NCBI GenBank assembly: GCA_024690605.1
Contig: JAILOV010000016.1
Location: 32,045-96,044, forward strand
DNA from: Lachnospiraceae bacterium
GTDB lineage: Bacteria > Bacillota > Clostridia > Lachnospirales > Lachnospiraceae
Reading direction: 5' to 3'
Length of the DNA: 64,000 bases
Shown here one piece after another: positions 51,476 to 58,289 of the stretch; position 1 is the stretch's first letter; every line of letters begins with the position of its first letter. A program made the translations under genes and the position numbers. The notes below the pieces were generated by a model. It worked only from the letters and a program-made list of their open reading frames with translations, was not told where the DNA came from and ran no database searches.

Positions 51476-51610
51476 AAAGTCCGGATTCTGTCACAATGCA
51501 CAAAAAAATCCGCAAATCTGTCAATCTTTTGTTCAAAAAGTAAAAAATGTGCTTGTCGAAGTAAAATTTTTCCATTCTCATTGCCGGTCTGTTCGTTTAT
51601 CATTCAGACT

Positions 51611-52189
51611 ATGGACGTTTTCGGGTTTCACAAATCAGCGGGATCAGAGAAGAGAAGAGCAGCCCGCGCGGTCATCATCGGGATTCTGTGTGTGCTTCTC
51701 CTCGGCGGATGCGGCGCGAAGACACAGCGATGGGCCTATATCCATGAACCCGATAAGGAGATCCTGTCCCTGTCCTCCGACGGCAAGGCCGTTTTCAAGG
51801 ATGTGAAATACACCTATACCAAGGATGACAGCAGGATCACCCTGACGGATGCGTCGGGAAACGCGGAGGACCACCGCTATTATATGGACGGCGACCAGAT
51901 GGTCTTCTACGAGCGTTCCGTCTACACGCTGGACGAAGGGACCGCGGGCGACGGGATCGTCGGTGTGTGGAAGAACGGCAAGAGTGAATATGAATTCACC
52001 GCAAAGGGAACCTTCAACGAGGACAACGCATTTTTCGGTCACTACGAAGTTGATGAACAGGCGGGGACCATTCAGTTCATGTATGACGCTCCGTTACAGG
52101 ACGCGCTTCTGTACTACGAACTGGACAGTGACGGAAAACAGCTCACGATCGATTATCCGTGGCCGATGATGGAGTGTCCGGCCAAATAA
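51611..52189 (+). CDS. Putative lipoprotein of unknown function
   Basis: VIIGILCVLLLGGCGAKTQRWAY lipobox followed by a beta-rich repeat-like body; likely start ATG 51611. Confidence 0.75.
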   Translation: MDVFGFHKSAGSEKRRAARAVIIGILCVLLLGGCGAKTQRWAYIHEPDKEILSLSSDGKAVFKDVKYTYTKDDSRITLTDASGNAEDHRYYMDGDQMVFYERSVYTLDEGTAGDGIVGVWKNGKSEYEFTAKGTFNEDNAFFGHYEVDEQAGTIQFMYDAPLQDALLYYELDSDGKQLTIDYPWPMMECPAK

Positions 52190-52198
52190 CAGGATCAA

Positions 52199-52340
52199 AA
52201 GCGGGAAACCGCTTGCGATAAAGACGGCAGACTGCCGTCGGAAACCAATATCTGGGGCGTGCTTCACAAAGCACAGCGATCCGCGGCGAGCCCGGATCGT
52301 GACACCGGAAGGCGGAACGTAAGATCCGCCCATGGCCCCG
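52199..52340 (+). ncRNA. Candidate structured leader RNA / cis-regulatory element upstream of a sugar ABC operon
   Basis: Five consecutive perfect or near-perfect hairpins (52199-52214, 52223-52239, 52259-52274, 52278-52298, 52311-52330) and a closing helix GGGGC (52254-52258)/GCCCC (52335-52339) around the last three. Confidence 0.6.
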
Positions 52341-52368
52341 CAACAAGTGCTCGTCATGGAGGAACATT

Positions 52369-53745
52369 ATGAAGAAACGTTTGGTTTCAGTGTTACTGGC
52401 CGGCGTCATGGCTCTTTCGCTCGCGGCTTGCGGCGAGAGCACGGCACCTGCCGACACGACCGCCCCTGCGACGGAGGCTCCTGCGGCTGAGGAGAAGAAG
52501 GAAGAGGCTCCCGCTGCCGAGGAGAAGAAGGAAGAGGCTCCTGCGGCCGACGCGACCGCGGATGCCGGCGAGGCACTCACGCTCAACATGTGGTGCATCG
52601 CGACGGAGAGCGATTCCAACCGTCATTCCTATGAGGAAGCGATCAAGGAGATGGCAGCGAATCATCCCGAGATCACCCTGAACTGGGAAGCTTTCGAGAA
52701 CCAGTCCTACAAGACCAAGATCAAGGCTGCGGTTTCCGCGAACGAGATGCCTGACATCTTCTTCACCTGGTCCTGCGCGTTCCTCGGCGATTTTGTCGAT
52801 GCGGGCAAGGTCTACTGCCTGGACGACGCTTACAAGAACTATGCAAGCGAGCTTCCGGAAGTCATGATGGGCAACTCCACCTATGGCGGCAAGCACTACG
52901 GCGTTCCGCTGACCATGAACATCGTCGGCCTGTTCGCCAACATGGATCTGCTCAAGGAAGCCGGCTATGACGAGATCCCCGGCACCTATGAGGAGTTCAT
53001 CAAGTGCTGCGATGCCCTGAAGGCAAAGAACATCATTCCGTTCGGCTGCGCGGGCAAAGAGACCTGGTGCGTTACCGAGTACCTTGAGTCCGTCATCGAG
53101 AAGAGTGTCGGCGCGGATGCGCTCAATGACATCTTCCTTGGCAGAGCGACCTGGGACAACGCCGATGTCGGCGCTGCGGTCGATGAGTTCCAGAAGCTCG
53201 TCACCAACGGCTACTTTGATCCCTCCGGCGCTGGTCTGACCAACGACGAAGTGAAGGCCAACTTCATGGCCGGCAAGTATGCGTTCTACATGAACGGCAC
53301 GTGGAACTGCGCGGACTTCGCGGCAAACGCTGACTTCAAGGACAAGGTCAAGGTCAGTGAGTTCCCGGTCATCAACGCTGACAAGGCTAAGCTCGGCCAG
53401 CTCATTGGCGGGCCTTCCGACACGCTCGCGGTTGCGGCTTCTTCTCCGAATGCTGAGAAGGCTGCGGACTACACCTTCGAGCTTGGTAAGCTCATCTGCC
53501 ACTACGGCTATCTGGACGGCTGCGGCCTTCCGGCCTGGACGCCTTACGGCGACACGAGCACGATCAACCCGCTGACGCAGGCTGTTTCCGAGATCTGCGC
53601 GAAGGCTGATTCCTATGTGCTCTTCGGTGACACGGCTATGTCTGCTGACGATGCCAACACCTATCTGTCCTATGTTGATCAGGTGTACGGCTGCCAGGTT
53701 GACGGCACGAAGTTCATCCAGGGTCTTGCGAAAGATATCCGCTGA
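52369..53745 (+). CDS. ABC transporter extracellular sugar-binding lipoprotein
   Basis: Lipobox ALSLAACGES, low-complexity linker, then LNMWCIATESDSNRHSYEEAIKEMAANHPEITLNWEAFENQSYKTKIKAAVSANEMPDIFFTWS...NIVGLFANMDLLKEAGYDEIPGTYEEF. Confidence 0.94.
   Translation: MKKRLVSVLLAGVMALSLAACGESTAPADTTAPATEAPAAEEKKEEAPAAEEKKEEAPAADATADAGEALTLNMWCIATESDSNRHSYEEAIKEMAANHPEITLNWEAFENQSYKTKIKAAVSANEMPDIFFTWSCAFLGDFVDAGKVYCLDDAYKNYASELPEVMMGNSTYGGKHYGVPLTMNIVGLFANMDLLKEAGYDEIPGTYEEFIKCCDALKAKNIIPFGCAGKETWCVTEYLESVIEKSVGADALNDIFLGRATWDNADVGAAVDEFQKLVTNGYFDPSGAGLTNDEVKANFMAGKYAFYMNGTWNCADFAANADFKDKVKVSEFPVINADKAKLGQLIGGPSDTLAVAASSPNAEKAADYTFELGKLICHYGYLDGCGLPAWTPYGDTSTINPLTQAVSEICAKADSYVLFGDTAMSADDANTYLSYVDQVYGCQVDGTKFIQGLAKDIR
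52489..52548 (+). repeat. Two tandem 30-bp copies encoding EEKKEEAPAA in the lipoprotein linker
   Basis: GAGGAGAAGAAGGAAGAGGCTCC[C/T]GC[T/G]GCC repeated twice. Confidence 0.85.
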
Positions 53746-53810: not shown

Positions 53811-54734
53811 ATGGCTGGTCAAACAAGTGTATCGGATCTGAAAAAACAGCGCAGAAGAAGAGATGTTGTTCAGGGGATCAATATCTTCCTCTTCCTTCTT
53901 CCGGGTCTGCTTCTCTTTGTGAGCATCCTGATCGCACCGATCGCCGTTTCCGTCTACAGGAGCATGTATGACTGGAACGGTTTTTCCGAGGGGACCTTTA
54001 TTGGTCTGGAAAACTACAAGGAGCTGTTCACCAACGGCTCGATCAAGTTCATGGTCTCCCTCAAGAATTCGCTTATTCTTGCCGCCTTTTCCGTTTTCGT
54101 CCAGCTGCCGATGTCTCTGGGACTCGCGCTGATCCTGGGAAGAAAACCGAAGGGCGAGCGCTTTTATCTGACGGTCTTTTTCATGCCGGTTCTGATCTCG
54201 ACGGTGGTCATCGGTCAGCTTTGGCTCAAGATCTACAATCCGGATTACGGCCTGCTCAACACACTGCTCGGCGTGCTGCATCTCGACAGCTGGAAGCATG
54301 TGTGGGTCGGTGAGGTCAAGACGGCGCTGGGCAGTATCATCGTGCCTACCATCTGGCAGTATGTCGGCTATCACATGCTGCTCATGTACGCCGGTGTCAA
54401 GGGCGTGTCCCCCGACCTCCGGGAAGCGGCCATGCTGGACGGTGCGACAGCCGGACAGGTCGACCGCTATATCGTCATTCCGATCATCAAACCCATCATC
54501 CGTGTGAGCGTGATCTTTGCCGTCACCGGATCTCTGAAGACCTATGACCTTGTCCGCATCCTGACGGAGGGCGGCCCGTTCCAGACGACGGAGGTTCCGA
54601 GCACCCTGCTCGAGAACATGCTGTTCCTGCGGAACCGGTACGGCATGGGCAGCACGATCTCGGTCATGCTGATCATCCTGTGCTTCGCATTCGCACTGTT
54701 GATCACTGCGGCATTCAAGGAAAAGGAAACCTGA
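53811..54734 (+). CDS. ABC sugar transporter permease (MalF-like)
   Basis: FLFLLPGLLLFVSILIAPIAVSVYRSMYDWNG, EAAMLDGATAGQVDRYIVIPIIKPII permease loop. Confidence 0.94.
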   Translation: MAGQTSVSDLKKQRRRRDVVQGINIFLFLLPGLLLFVSILIAPIAVSVYRSMYDWNGFSEGTFIGLENYKELFTNGSIKFMVSLKNSLILAAFSVFVQLPMSLGLALILGRKPKGERFYLTVFFMPVLISTVVIGQLWLKIYNPDYGLLNTLLGVLHLDSWKHVWVGEVKTALGSIIVPTIWQYVGYHMLLMYAGVKGVSPDLREAAMLDGATAGQVDRYIVIPIIKPIIRVSVIFAVTGSLKTYDLVRILTEGGPFQTTEVPSTLLENMLFLRNRYGMGSTISVMLIILCFAFALLITAAFKEKET

Positions 54735-54735
54735 G

Positions 54736-55620
54736 ATGAAAGAGATAAAACAATCCAAGGCGATGAAGTTTGACACGACCTATGTGCCCAAGGGGTCAAA
54801 CCCCGTCGCGAAGACGATCATCTATATCCTGCTGATCATCTGGTCGGTGATCAATATCTTCCCGATCTACTTCATGTTCACCTTCTCGTTAAAGTCCAAC
54901 GAGGAGATCTTCGGACTCAATGTCGCGGGACTGCCGAGAGACTGGCTGTGGTCGAACTACGCCTCCGCCATGGGCACCGGCAATATGGGTCTGTATTTCG
55001 TGAACAGCATCCTCGTGACCGGCGCGTCGATCGCCATTTCCCTCATCGCTGCCCTGATGGCTACCTATGCGATCACGCGCATCAAGTGGAGAGGAAGCAA
55101 GCTGACCAACGCGTTCTTCATGCTGGGACTCACGATCCCGATCCAGGCGTCCATCGTGCCGGTCTATGTCGTGCTTTCCAAGCTTCACTGGCTCAACAAG
55201 TACAGCACGCTGATCGTGCCCTACTCCGCGTTCGCGCTGTCGATGGCGATCCTGATCTGCACCGGTTTCATGGTGGAGATCCCCTATGATCTCGACGAGG
55301 CGGCCCGCATCGACGGCTGCGGCCTGTGGCGCACGTTCTTCAAGATCATCCTGCCGCTCATGAAGCCGGCGTATTCGACGATCGGTGTTTACTCCTATCT
55401 GCAGTGCTGGAATGAGTTCATGTTTGCCAACGTGTTCATCAGCGATTCCCAGCACCGCACGCTGCCTGTGGGTATCAAGGCCCTCTCCGGCCAGCACACG
55501 ACGGACTGGGGACCGATCGGCGCGGCACTGGTCATCGCCACTTTCCCGACCCTGATCATCTATATCATTCTGTGCAAGAGGATCCAGGAGAGCTTTATCG
55601 CCGGTGCCGTCAAGGGGTGA
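54736..55620 (+). CDS. ABC sugar transporter permease (MalG-like)
   Basis: IYILLIIWSVINIFPIYFMFTFSLKSNEEIFG; DEAARIDGCGLWRTFFKIILPLMKPAYSTIGVYSYLQCWNEFMFA. Confidence 0.95.
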   Translation: MKEIKQSKAMKFDTTYVPKGSNPVAKTIIYILLIIWSVINIFPIYFMFTFSLKSNEEIFGLNVAGLPRDWLWSNYASAMGTGNMGLYFVNSILVTGASIAISLIAALMATYAITRIKWRGSKLTNAFFMLGLTIPIQASIVPVYVVLSKLHWLNKYSTLIVPYSAFALSMAILICTGFMVEIPYDLDEAARIDGCGLWRTFFKIILPLMKPAYSTIGVYSYLQCWNEFMFANVFISDSQHRTLPVGIKALSGQHTTDWGPIGAALVIATFPTLIIYIILCKRIQESFIAGAVKG

Positions 55621-55749: not shown

Positions 55750-57519
55750 ATGCAGACCGAAGCAAACGCAAAAGATCACCCGGACAGGAAGAAGCGGGGG
55801 CGCTCACTTTCCGTTGCCTTAAAGAAGATCATCCTGCTGATCGTCCTGCTCATCCTGCTGTCCTTTCTGATCTCGGTCTATCTGGTCACCGGGAGTGAGC
55901 GCACCAGGACCTCCATGCAGGAGTCGGAAAACGTGCTGATGACGCTCTCGAGCAATATCGCCTCCAACATCCGCAGTTACGCGGAGCTCTCGCGGCTCAT
56001 CATGACGGATGAGCGGCTGGTTGACTTTCTCCGGGCGGAGGCCTCGACGGTGGATATGGGACGCATCAACGATGCGCGATACGCCGTCATGGACATTCTC
56101 AACGTGACGGAGGGTGTGGATTCCGTGATGATCTTCCGCGAGGATCTGATCATGTTTTCCACCAAGCGGTTCTCCTATCAGTTCGATCTGGAGAGGCTGA
56201 GCGGCGAGGAGTGGAAAGCGGATATCCTGGATGCCATGGGAGGCGCCGTCGTCTCGCTCAACCGGAACGGCGTTGCCAAAAAGCCGGACGATACGCCTGT
56301 GGTAACGGTCGGCAGAGCGATCTATGATCTCAACACGCAGAAGCGGACGGGGATCCTGCTGCTCAACATCTCGCCGGTGGTCTATGACCGGATGCTCGGC
56401 CAGCTGCGATACAGCAACATCTGCATCCTGGGGGAGGACGGAACCTTTCTTGCGGGAAACAGGGACTATGCGTCATGGTTTGATCCTGCGTTCCTGACGA
56501 ACACGGTCCGGCACATGGAGGTGCAGGTTGACGGCAAGCGCATGCTCCTGTCCGGCTGCAGGGTGAACGGCATGCCCATCATGATCCTCAGGCTGACCGG
56601 CTATGGGACCGGCGGGATCCCCTACGGGTTCATCTATGTGCTGCTGATCCTGCTGTTCATCTTCCTGGTGGCGTTCTTCTGGGTGGGCACCTTTGTCACA
56701 AAGAACATCACGCGCCCGGTCTTTGAACTGTCCGCTTGGATGGACCGCAACAAGCAGTCCGGTGATCTGAAAAAGATCGACATGAACATCCCCTACAGCG
56801 AGCTGGATATGCTGAAGGGTGACTACAACGACATGATCGATCATGTGAACGAACTGATCGAGACGAACATAGAAAAGGAGAAGACCGTACAGCGCGCGGA
56901 GATGCGCGTGCTGCAGGAGCAGATCAAGCCGCACTTTCTCTACAATTCCATCGAGACCATCGGGGCGCTGGCGCTGGAAGCCGGCGCGGAAAATGTCTAT
57001 GACGCGCTGGAAACGATGGGAAGTTTTTACCGGAATTTCTTAAGCAAGGGGAACCGGGAGATCCGTCTCAAGCAGGAGATCCGCATCGTTAAAGACTACC
57101 TGTCCCTGCAGAAACTGCGTTACGGGGACATTTTAGAGGATATCTACGATATCCCCGAGGACACCAAAGAATATGTGGTGCCCAAGCTGATCCTGCAGCC
57201 GCTCGTGGAAAACAGCATCTACCACGGGATCCGGCTGAAGGGGGAAAAGGGGATCATCAAGATCTCCGCGATAAAGGCGGACGATGCGCTGTATCTCACC
57301 GTGCGGGACACCGGCGTCGGCATGTCCGCGGAACAGATCGAGCGCGTGCTGAACACCGACAGGACAAACGCGGAGGAGCAGGACAGGGGGAGCTTCGGTC
57401 TCTGGGGGACCATTGAGAGGATCAGGATGTACTGCGGCCGTCAGGATGTGGCGAGCATCGAGAGTGTTCCCGGAGAGTTCACGGAGATCCGGCTGATGAT
57501 CACAAGGAGCGGAGTGTAG
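55750..57519 (+). CDS. YesM/LytS-type sensor histidine kinase
   Basis: Two TM helices, HAMP-like region, RAEMRVLQEQIKPHFLYNSIETIGALALEAGA, LILQPLVENSIYHGI, VRDTGVGMSAEQIERVL. Confidence 0.94.
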   Translation: MQTEANAKDHPDRKKRGRSLSVALKKIILLIVLLILLSFLISVYLVTGSERTRTSMQESENVLMTLSSNIASNIRSYAELSRLIMTDERLVDFLRAEASTVDMGRINDARYAVMDILNVTEGVDSVMIFREDLIMFSTKRFSYQFDLERLSGEEWKADILDAMGGAVVSLNRNGVAKKPDDTPVVTVGRAIYDLNTQKRTGILLLNISPVVYDRMLGQLRYSNICILGEDGTFLAGNRDYASWFDPAFLTNTVRHMEVQVDGKRMLLSGCRVNGMPIMILRLTGYGTGGIPYGFIYVLLILLFIFLVAFFWVGTFVTKNITRPVFELSAWMDRNKQSGDLKKIDMNIPYSELDMLKGDYNDMIDHVNELIETNIEKEKTVQRAEMRVLQEQIKPHFLYNSIETIGALALEAGAENVYDALETMGSFYRNFLSKGNREIRLKQEIRIVKDYLSLQKLRYGDILEDIYDIPEDTKEYVVPKLILQPLVENSIYHGIRLKGEKGIIKISAIKADDALYLTVRDTGVGMSAEQIERVLNTDRTNAEEQDRGSFGLWGTIERIRMYCGRQDVASIESVPGEFTEIRLMITRSGV

Positions 57520-57521
57520 AA

Positions 57522-58289
57522 ATGGACAGAGTGTTCAGAGTCATGATCATTGACGATGAGGAATCCGCGCGCAAGCTGCTGCGTGCGGGCATCAAATGGG
57601 ACAGTCTGCACATGGAGGTCGTCGGCGAGGCGGCGAGCGGCATCGAAGCGATCAACGTGATCGACGATTACCGTCCGGACATCGTGTTCGTGGACATCTC
57701 CATGCCGTTCATGGACGGTATCGAATTCACGGAGACGGTCACGGAGCGCTATCCGCATCTGATCATCATCATCATGACGGCGATCGACCAGTTTGAGTAT
57801 GCCAGAAAATGTGTCAGTCTCCCGGTGTTCGAGTATATGCTCAAGCCCATGGTGCGCGCGGAGATCACCCGGGTTCTCGAACGGGCGGGGGAGAGACTGA
57901 AGCAGGAGCCGGATCACTGGGAGGAACAGCGTGCGGAAACCGATGCGGAGCTGCCCGAAGAGGATCAGCTGACGGAACCGGTCCGGCGCTATGTGGAGCA
58001 GAACTACGCGGATTCCATGCTGAACCTTGCGTTTCTCGCCCAGCATTTCGGCTTCAGTCCGAGTTATCTCTCAAGGAAGTTCAAGCAGGAAACCGGCAAG
58101 AATTTCGTGGAGTATCTGACGGAGCTGCGCATGGAAAAGGCGATCAAACTCGCGGCAACGGGGCAGAAGATGTTCCACACGGCCGCGGAGGTCGGCATCC
58201 CGGATCCCAATTACTTCGGGAGATGCTTCAAGAAATACACGGGGATGAGCTATTCGGAATATTCCGCCTCACCCGGACGCCGTGAGTAA
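57522..58289 (+). CDS. YesN-type response regulator (REC + AraC HTH)
   Basis: VMIIDDEESARKLLRAGIKW...DIVFVDISMPFMDGIEF; AraC HTH LAQHFGFSPSYLSRKFKQETGKNFVEYLTELRMEKA...VGIPDPNYFGRCFKKYTGMSYSEY. Confidence 0.95.
   Translation: MDRVFRVMIIDDEESARKLLRAGIKWDSLHMEVVGEAASGIEAINVIDDYRPDIVFVDISMPFMDGIEFTETVTERYPHLIIIIMTAIDQFEYARKCVSLPVFEYMLKPMVRAEITRVLERAGERLKQEPDHWEEQRAETDAELPEEDQLTEPVRRYVEQNYADSMLNLAFLAQHFGFSPSYLSRKFKQETGKNFVEYLTELRMEKAIKLAATGQKMFHTAAEVGIPDPNYFGRCFKKYTGMSYSEYSASPGRRE

Follow-up and report, generated by a model that had tools for sequence, protein, structure and literature searches.

BOX, RUP and SPRITE of Streptococcus pneumoniae are small dispersed repeats that are over-represented between convergent genes (PMC3049150), and RUP has terminal inverted repeats in common with IS630-Spn1 (PMC2229807). 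The element analysed here resembles these repeats in being small, dispersed and foldable, in that copies insert into one another and in a possible placement within 5′ UTRs (BOX occurs next to T-boxes), but differs in being sense-oriented, in lying between a Shine–Dalgarno sequence (SD) and a start codon and in having a covarying pseudoknot. A likeness to the ERIC (IRU) repeats of enterobacteria lies in the ERIC features of a length of about 127 bp, transcription and an orientation-dependent effect on mRNA, whereas neither SD/start-codon targeting nor a pseudoknot appears in their description, as far as the available part of PMC2229807 extends. The C. difficile allosteric group I intron is likewise a mobile-derived 5′ UTR RNA, a domesticated invader that controls access to the ribosome-binding site (RBS) (PMC3984707), but it splices itself as a ribozyme and has a c-di-GMP aptamer, whereas the present element measures about 120 nt, shows no ribozyme core and exists in many copies. 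Provisionally, the element seems to be undescribed, as no earlier description was found in the open-access literature.

We assign a probability of roughly 0.6 to the reading that positions 52254–52362 of the window (the whole stretch of 64,000 nucleotides that was analysed) are a domesticated old copy of a dispersed, mobile, non-coding and structured element of the Lachnospirales that acts as a translation-initiation cassette. The leader in question, 52190–52368, had been described from its letters as a run of five hairpins with a closing helix GGGGC/GCCCC and the SD ATGGAGG, and all of these were found at the positions given below. Its minimum free energy was −70.3 kcal/mol against −55.7 ± 4.4 in dinucleotide shuffles (z −3.33), with none of 200 shuffles as low; together with conservation in orthologs, this bears out the proposal of a structured RNA adjoining the RBS. 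No known class had been recognized in the leader by the sequence-only reading, and an Rfam scan of the whole window agreed, with no match over any family's gathering threshold. At permissive E-values, further element loci likewise gave no usable Rfam match to the element. The TD-1 RNA (RF03155), which we take to be a multi-copy structured RNA of Treponema, had one weak partial overlap with an element copy (E 0.34) and was rejected as a candidate, its model finding no element copies over the cut-off in eight genomes, several of them with about 20 or more copies. The features of the locus are as follows.

51581–52189, plus strand: upstream lipoprotein-like gene (open reading frame list; DUF5640 at E 4e-4, below cut-off).
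52199–52214, plus strand: hairpin 1, AAGCGG-GAAA-CCGCTT, of the older leader and outside the inserted element (present in orthologous leaders without the element; compensatory changes).
52215–52222, plus strand: linker GCGATAAA that joins the two hairpins, kept as roughly N-GATA-A (ortholog comparison).
52223–52239, plus strand: hairpin 2, GACGGCA-GAC-TGCCGTC, of the older leader (ortholog leaders; compensatory changes).
52254–52258, plus strand: P1 5′ strand GGGGC, at the SD position of element-free orthologs (paired in all five filled leaders).
52259–52355, plus strand: core of the inserted element, comprising P2, P3, P4, the P1 3′ strand and the pseudoknot tail (covariance models R1 and R2).
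52259–52274, plus strand: P2 hairpin GTGCTT-CACA-AAGCAC (re-paired in orthologs as GTGC/GCAC, GTGT/ACAC and GTGA/TCAC).
52277–52299, plus strand: P3 hairpin with the pseudoknot loop; GATCCG..CGGATC at 52278–52298, 7 bp as CGATCCG/CGGATCG (re-paired in orthologs).
52285–52291, plus strand: pseudoknot strand 1, the P3 loop GGCGAGC with an SD-like GAG core (covariation over 24 loop/tail variants).
52311–52330, plus strand: P4 hairpin GGCGGA..TCCGCC (sequence differs yet pairs in every ortholog).
52335–52339, plus strand: P1 3′ strand GCCCC, partner of 52254–52258 (sequence; ortholog pairing).
52349–52355, plus strand: pseudoknot strand 2, the tail GCTCGTC, adjoining the SD (covariation; sequence).
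52356–52362, plus strand: SD ATGGAGG, probably serving the solute-binding protein gene (sequence; the corresponding end precedes an open reading frame start in 88 of 104 copies).
52369–53745, plus strand: ABC transporter solute-binding protein, with its ATG at 52369 (SBP_bac_1, E 5.7e-28).
53811–55620, plus strand: two ABC permeases, 53811–54734 and 54736–55620 (BPD_transp_1).
55750–58289, plus strand: Cache sensor histidine kinase (55750–57519) and AraC-type response regulator (57522–58289) (Pfam).

Judged from its sequence, the leader is a composite of the older hairpins 1 and 2 (52199–52239) and an element copy at about 52254–52362, and not the single unit as which it was originally read. 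The genome holding the window comprises 2.76 Mb in 79 contigs. Orthologs of the binding protein, at 76–93 % identity, occur in more than 40 of the 79 genomes of the genus, and a large number of these have leaders limited to hairpin 1, a GATA linker and often hairpin 2, followed by an ordinary SD and ATG. A homologue of the lipoprotein-like gene occupies the same place in many members of the genus, its coding sequence ending just 5′ of the leader. The two-hairpin leader is thus common to many orthologous ABC operons of the genus, independent of the inserted element. The compensatory changes seen in both of its hairpins are supportive at most, as the arms were picked by hand and this bias flatters the pairing counts; RNAalifold returned no consensus for the two hairpins, on a poor alignment. 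The element part (P2, P3, P4 and the tail AAGTGCTCGTCATGGAGG) was present in the leaders of five species only (G000, G015, G038, G049 and G117). An element-free ortholog (L031) reads ATTATCTAAGGAGGTAGATCATG where the window reads ATATCTGGGGC–element–ATGGAGGAACATTATG, and because of this correspondence the old SD, in decayed form, probably survives as the 5′ strand of P1.

The wider family was searched with two covariance models, R1, built from nine copies with the window copy left out, and R2, built with the window copy included; the window copy was matched by R1 at E 1.6e-7 and by R2 at E 3.1e-11. The element measures about 110–170 nt and comprises three hairpins and a pseudoknot from the loop of the second hairpin to a tail just 5′ of the SD. 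Its 3′ string also precedes unrelated genes in other members of the genus. A scan for this string in 85,000 species genomes gave 25 stretches; almost all came from rumen Lachnospiraceae or from metagenome-assembled genomes (MAGs) with similar labels, including one MAG with many. Five related MAGs of 2.1–2.6 Mb had 57, 42, 23, 16 and 15 matches to R1 at E≤0.1, and in a group of 39 genomes around one of these MAGs the element was carried by 31, with a maximum of 44 copies at E≤1e-4. When 146 genomes were sampled evenly across the order, six had the element, from four genera and two families. It is rare in the genus of the window (8 of 79 genomes), and the copy in this leader is the single one found in its genome. 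The element had no match in the phage and plasmid collections, and a phage or plasmid origin was rejected on this basis; the matches from a 15-mer scan of viral contigs all lay outside the element's context.

That the element is mobile and was inserted between SD and start codon is well supported. Two MITE-like features were found, namely many near-identical copies at unrelated loci and filled and empty orthologous sites among relatives, the latter for five genes (yebC, parA, argC, argH and tsf). For yebC, the site is filled in G121, as TTTTAGAGGAGGATA–element–GGAGGAAAAAAATG, and empty in G123, as TTTTAGGAGGATAAGTACATG, as well as in G118, G119 and G120. The argH site is filled in G118, as AGAGGCGGTATA–element–ATGGAGGATTAATATG, and reads AAAGGCGG, with ATG following within a few bases, in G119, G120, G121 and G123, where it is empty. 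G121 also has the element at parA and argC, where other genomes have an empty site; at tsf, it is present in G119 and G121 and absent from G122 and G123. One observation concerns this tsf insertion, shared by the G121 and G119 loci (L207 and L189): P4 and the tail have been deleted in one species, with SD and ATG intact.

The position of the copies was highly consistent. An open reading frame starts at the 3′ end of 88 of the 104 distinct copies, with ATG as start codon in 85, and an SD-like core lies within 14 nt to the left of the element in 96 of 116 copies, compared with 15 of 111 for a control window that lies some 20 nt farther upstream. As shown by these starts on the right and SD-like cores on the left, the order at the copies, predicted from sequence, is SD, element, SD and ATG, in the sense direction. 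The genes that follow are unrelated to one another and include atpC (ATP synthase epsilon chain), argH (argininosuccinate lyase), murG (MurG-type glycosyltransferase), parA (ParA-type ATPase), argC, trxA (thioredoxin), yebC, serS (seryl-tRNA synthetase), ruvA and tsf (EF-Ts). At one locus (L301:1248–1680) a T-box leader (E 3e-17, just under the cut-off) is followed by the element between SD and ATG, forming a composite leader, and the gene behind it is tRNA-synthetase-like. Tandem copies were seen at four loci (L121, L082, L176 and L206), the younger copy directly behind the SD of the older one.

The flanks hold indications of how insertion may occur. At argH the SD reads GGCGG on the left and GGAGG on the right, and this difference suggests that the element brings an SD with it. 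In other copies the two flanks are identical over 8–11 nt, as if the SD had been duplicated. Similarity of left and right flanks was 2.99, compared with 1.75 ± 0.24 in permuted pairs; since the observed value exceeds all 2000 permutations (maximum 2.58), some target duplication at insertion is likely. The dinucleotide TA stands directly 5′ of the element in 74 of 116 copies, the ends in their context being TA-GTGTGAAAAATC and CTCGTCATGG, and this TA suggests a TA-targeting transposase acting in trans. Unlike in RUP, no terminal inverted repeats were seen in the element by eye, the ends GTGTGAAAAATC... and ...GCTCGTCATGG not being inverted copies. Nested in the P2 stem of one copy (L157:701–1082, minus strand) is another small element, whose ends GTTACTATTCACGGGT / ACCCGTGAATAGTAAC are inverted.

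Comparison of copies gives good support to a family fold of hairpins P2, P3 and P4 with a pseudoknot in which the P3 loop pairs with a tail abutting the downstream SD; the three hairpins recur among copies with variable length. An alternative pairing next to the SD had been predicted by the sequence-only reading, as AGCAC (52270–52274) with GTGCT (52347–52351). This pairing exists in the window but is not conserved, the corresponding 3′ arms in the four orthologous leaders reading CGCAC, CGCAC, CACAC and TTCAC, and the conserved partner of the tail is instead the loop of the next hairpin (GGCGAGC at 52285–52291 with GCTCGTC at 52349–52355). The general prediction was thus confirmed in the form of a conserved P3 loop/tail pseudoknot. 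Loop/tail pairs in the family include GACGAGC/GCTCGTC, GCTGAGC/GCTCAGC, CCGGAGCGT/ACGCTCCGG, TTCTGAGCGA/TCGCTCAGAA and CCGAGAACGT/ACGTTCTCGG, among others. Over 24 distinct loop/tail variants, 86.3 % of cells were paired (65.2 ± 1.9 when shuffled) and double-change cells numbered 56 (20.5 when shuffled), counts that are inflated by related sequences, yet at seven of the ten pairs both partners change, and the subfamilies are quite different in sequence. Covariation was also found, with a score of 0.572 against 0.182 in shuffles and reached in none of 500 of them, while sliding the register gave at most 0.114. The fit of each loop to its own tail was 7.76, compared with 6.31 when permuted (maximum 7.04 of 5000). 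The GAGC/GCUC core is nearly invariant (GAG/CUC), as expected if the CUC has a second partner, and the flanking pairs covary freely. The pseudoknot is broken in some copies (one type in G042 and G059, and L175). P1, tried as a family-wide covarying helix, was weak, with its own pairing (7.75) within the permutation range (7.25 ± 0.24), and appears convincing in the transporter clade only.

In a tree of the binding protein, the five species with the element in this leader and one without it (G045) form a clade with 99/96 support, most simply explained by one gain in the ancestor of the six species and one loss. P2, P3 and P4 have changed in sequence in the five filled leaders and are still paired, though here too the arms were selected manually, a choice that flatters the count of pairs; the P3 arms, for example, read CGATCCG/CGGATCG, CGGCCCG/CGGGTCG and CGGCTTG/CAAGCCG. 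The pseudoknot is intact in all five, with an A-U to G-U change in four. The re-paired helices and intact pseudoknot over five species argue for a function of the window copy in place, at the RNA level. On balance, the window element is probably a domesticated copy of a mobile non-coding element. A peptide encoded by the open GTG frame of the window copy was considered and rejected, as frames and peptides differ between species, with early stops elsewhere (by eye).

This retention bears on the possibility that the family is a purely selfish repeat, with a fold that serves mobility alone (for example, as single-stranded DNA recognized by a transposase in trans) and a start-codon slot that is a harmless place to insert. 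The many near-identical copies, tandem insertions and polymorphic sites would all be expected of such a repeat, and BOX and RUP of pneumococcus have been judged parasitic (PMC3049150). However, harmlessness leaves the strict sense orientation and the SD/start-codon slot unexplained, and the lone transporter-leader copy has kept all its helices and the pseudoknot over five species, which suggests function in place. We regard the purely selfish reading as rather unlikely.

For the mobile, structured element favoured here, we infer a role as a mobile replacement translation-initiation cassette. Insertion would leave the old SD upstream of the element, in a place that allows formation of the closing helix P1, and translation of the gene would start from the SD at the 3′ end of the element. 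In the tail, the invariant CUC could pair with the GAG of the P3 loop, forming the pseudoknot and leaving the SD free, or alternatively with the GAG of the SD, which would then be masked. The P3 loop would thereby act as an SD mimic that competes for the tail and frees the real SD, and pseudoknot formation would set the amount of protein made. In nearest-neighbour energy calculations with the pseudoknot held, the unpaired probability of the downstream SD in the window copy rose from 0.36 to 0.61 and that of the old SD fell from 0.63 to 0.29. Averaged over copies, the right SD was unpaired at 0.35 when free and 0.38 with the pseudoknot held, so that nearest-neighbour accessibility showed no clear average freeing of the SD by the pseudoknot. 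It is a tentative and somewhat doubtful extension that a mobile regulator targeting SDs may have spread one translational switch, pseudoknot versus SD, to dozens of unrelated genes, creating a new regulon by transposition.

Small bacterial repeats are usually viewed as intergenic litter; this one occupies the most sensitive bases of a gene, the gap from SD to start codon. It fronts the essential genes tsf, serS and murG, would bring or duplicate an RBS and has retained a covarying pseudoknot against that site. Should the element regulate, it would show how a selfish repeat can tie many genes into a single translational network; should it not, it would show how a parasite can survive unharmed at start codons. 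Either way, the natural insertions are ready as a study set.

A role in mRNA processing or stability, in which cleavage of the hairpins, or a nuclease block formed by them, lets the binding-protein message outlast that of the upstream lipoprotein, would suit the position between two same-direction genes, and ERIC copies alter the stability of upstream transcripts in an orientation-dependent manner (PMC2229807). The conserved contact involves a tail touching the SD, however, and at least one copy follows a T-box leader and so precedes the first gene of its transcript, and we consider this role quite unlikely.

The sequence-only reading had proposed a ligand-gated leader of a sugar ABC operon. 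A metabolite riboswitch would agree with a multi-helix junction and pseudoknot adjoining the SD and kept in one clade of the operon, but the same mobile element stands before dozens of unrelated genes, housekeeping genes among them, with no single-pathway association, and is missing from most orthologs of the ABC operon. The operon also has its own two-component system, and the Cache histidine kinase/AraC-type regulator pair is more likely to be its sugar sensor. A riboswitch is accordingly very improbable as an explanation. Least credible of all is a tiny self-excising RNA whose removal would bring the old SD and the ATG together again, in the manner of the C. difficile allosteric group I intron, as the slot exactly between SD and start codon, the GTGTG start of most copies and the resemblance of a GTGYG-like 5′ end and AT-like 3′ end to group II introns are outweighed by three points: at about 120 nt, the element shows neither a domain V nor a group I core, its own good SD makes excision needless, and the Rfam matches include no group I or group II intron family.

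Several variants of the element were also observed. Subfamilies with an extra small hairpin in the P4 or P3 loop (L174, L177–L179, L217, L235 and L236) have kept the pseudoknot bases. In a divergent subfamily (L184, L187, L222 and L224), the P3 loop and the tail each seem to be locally hairpinned (GCCG..CGGC) and not joined in the usual pseudoknot. At another locus (L245:736–843), a Clostridiales-1 RNA near threshold (43.7 bits, cut-off 48) was found close to an element copy.
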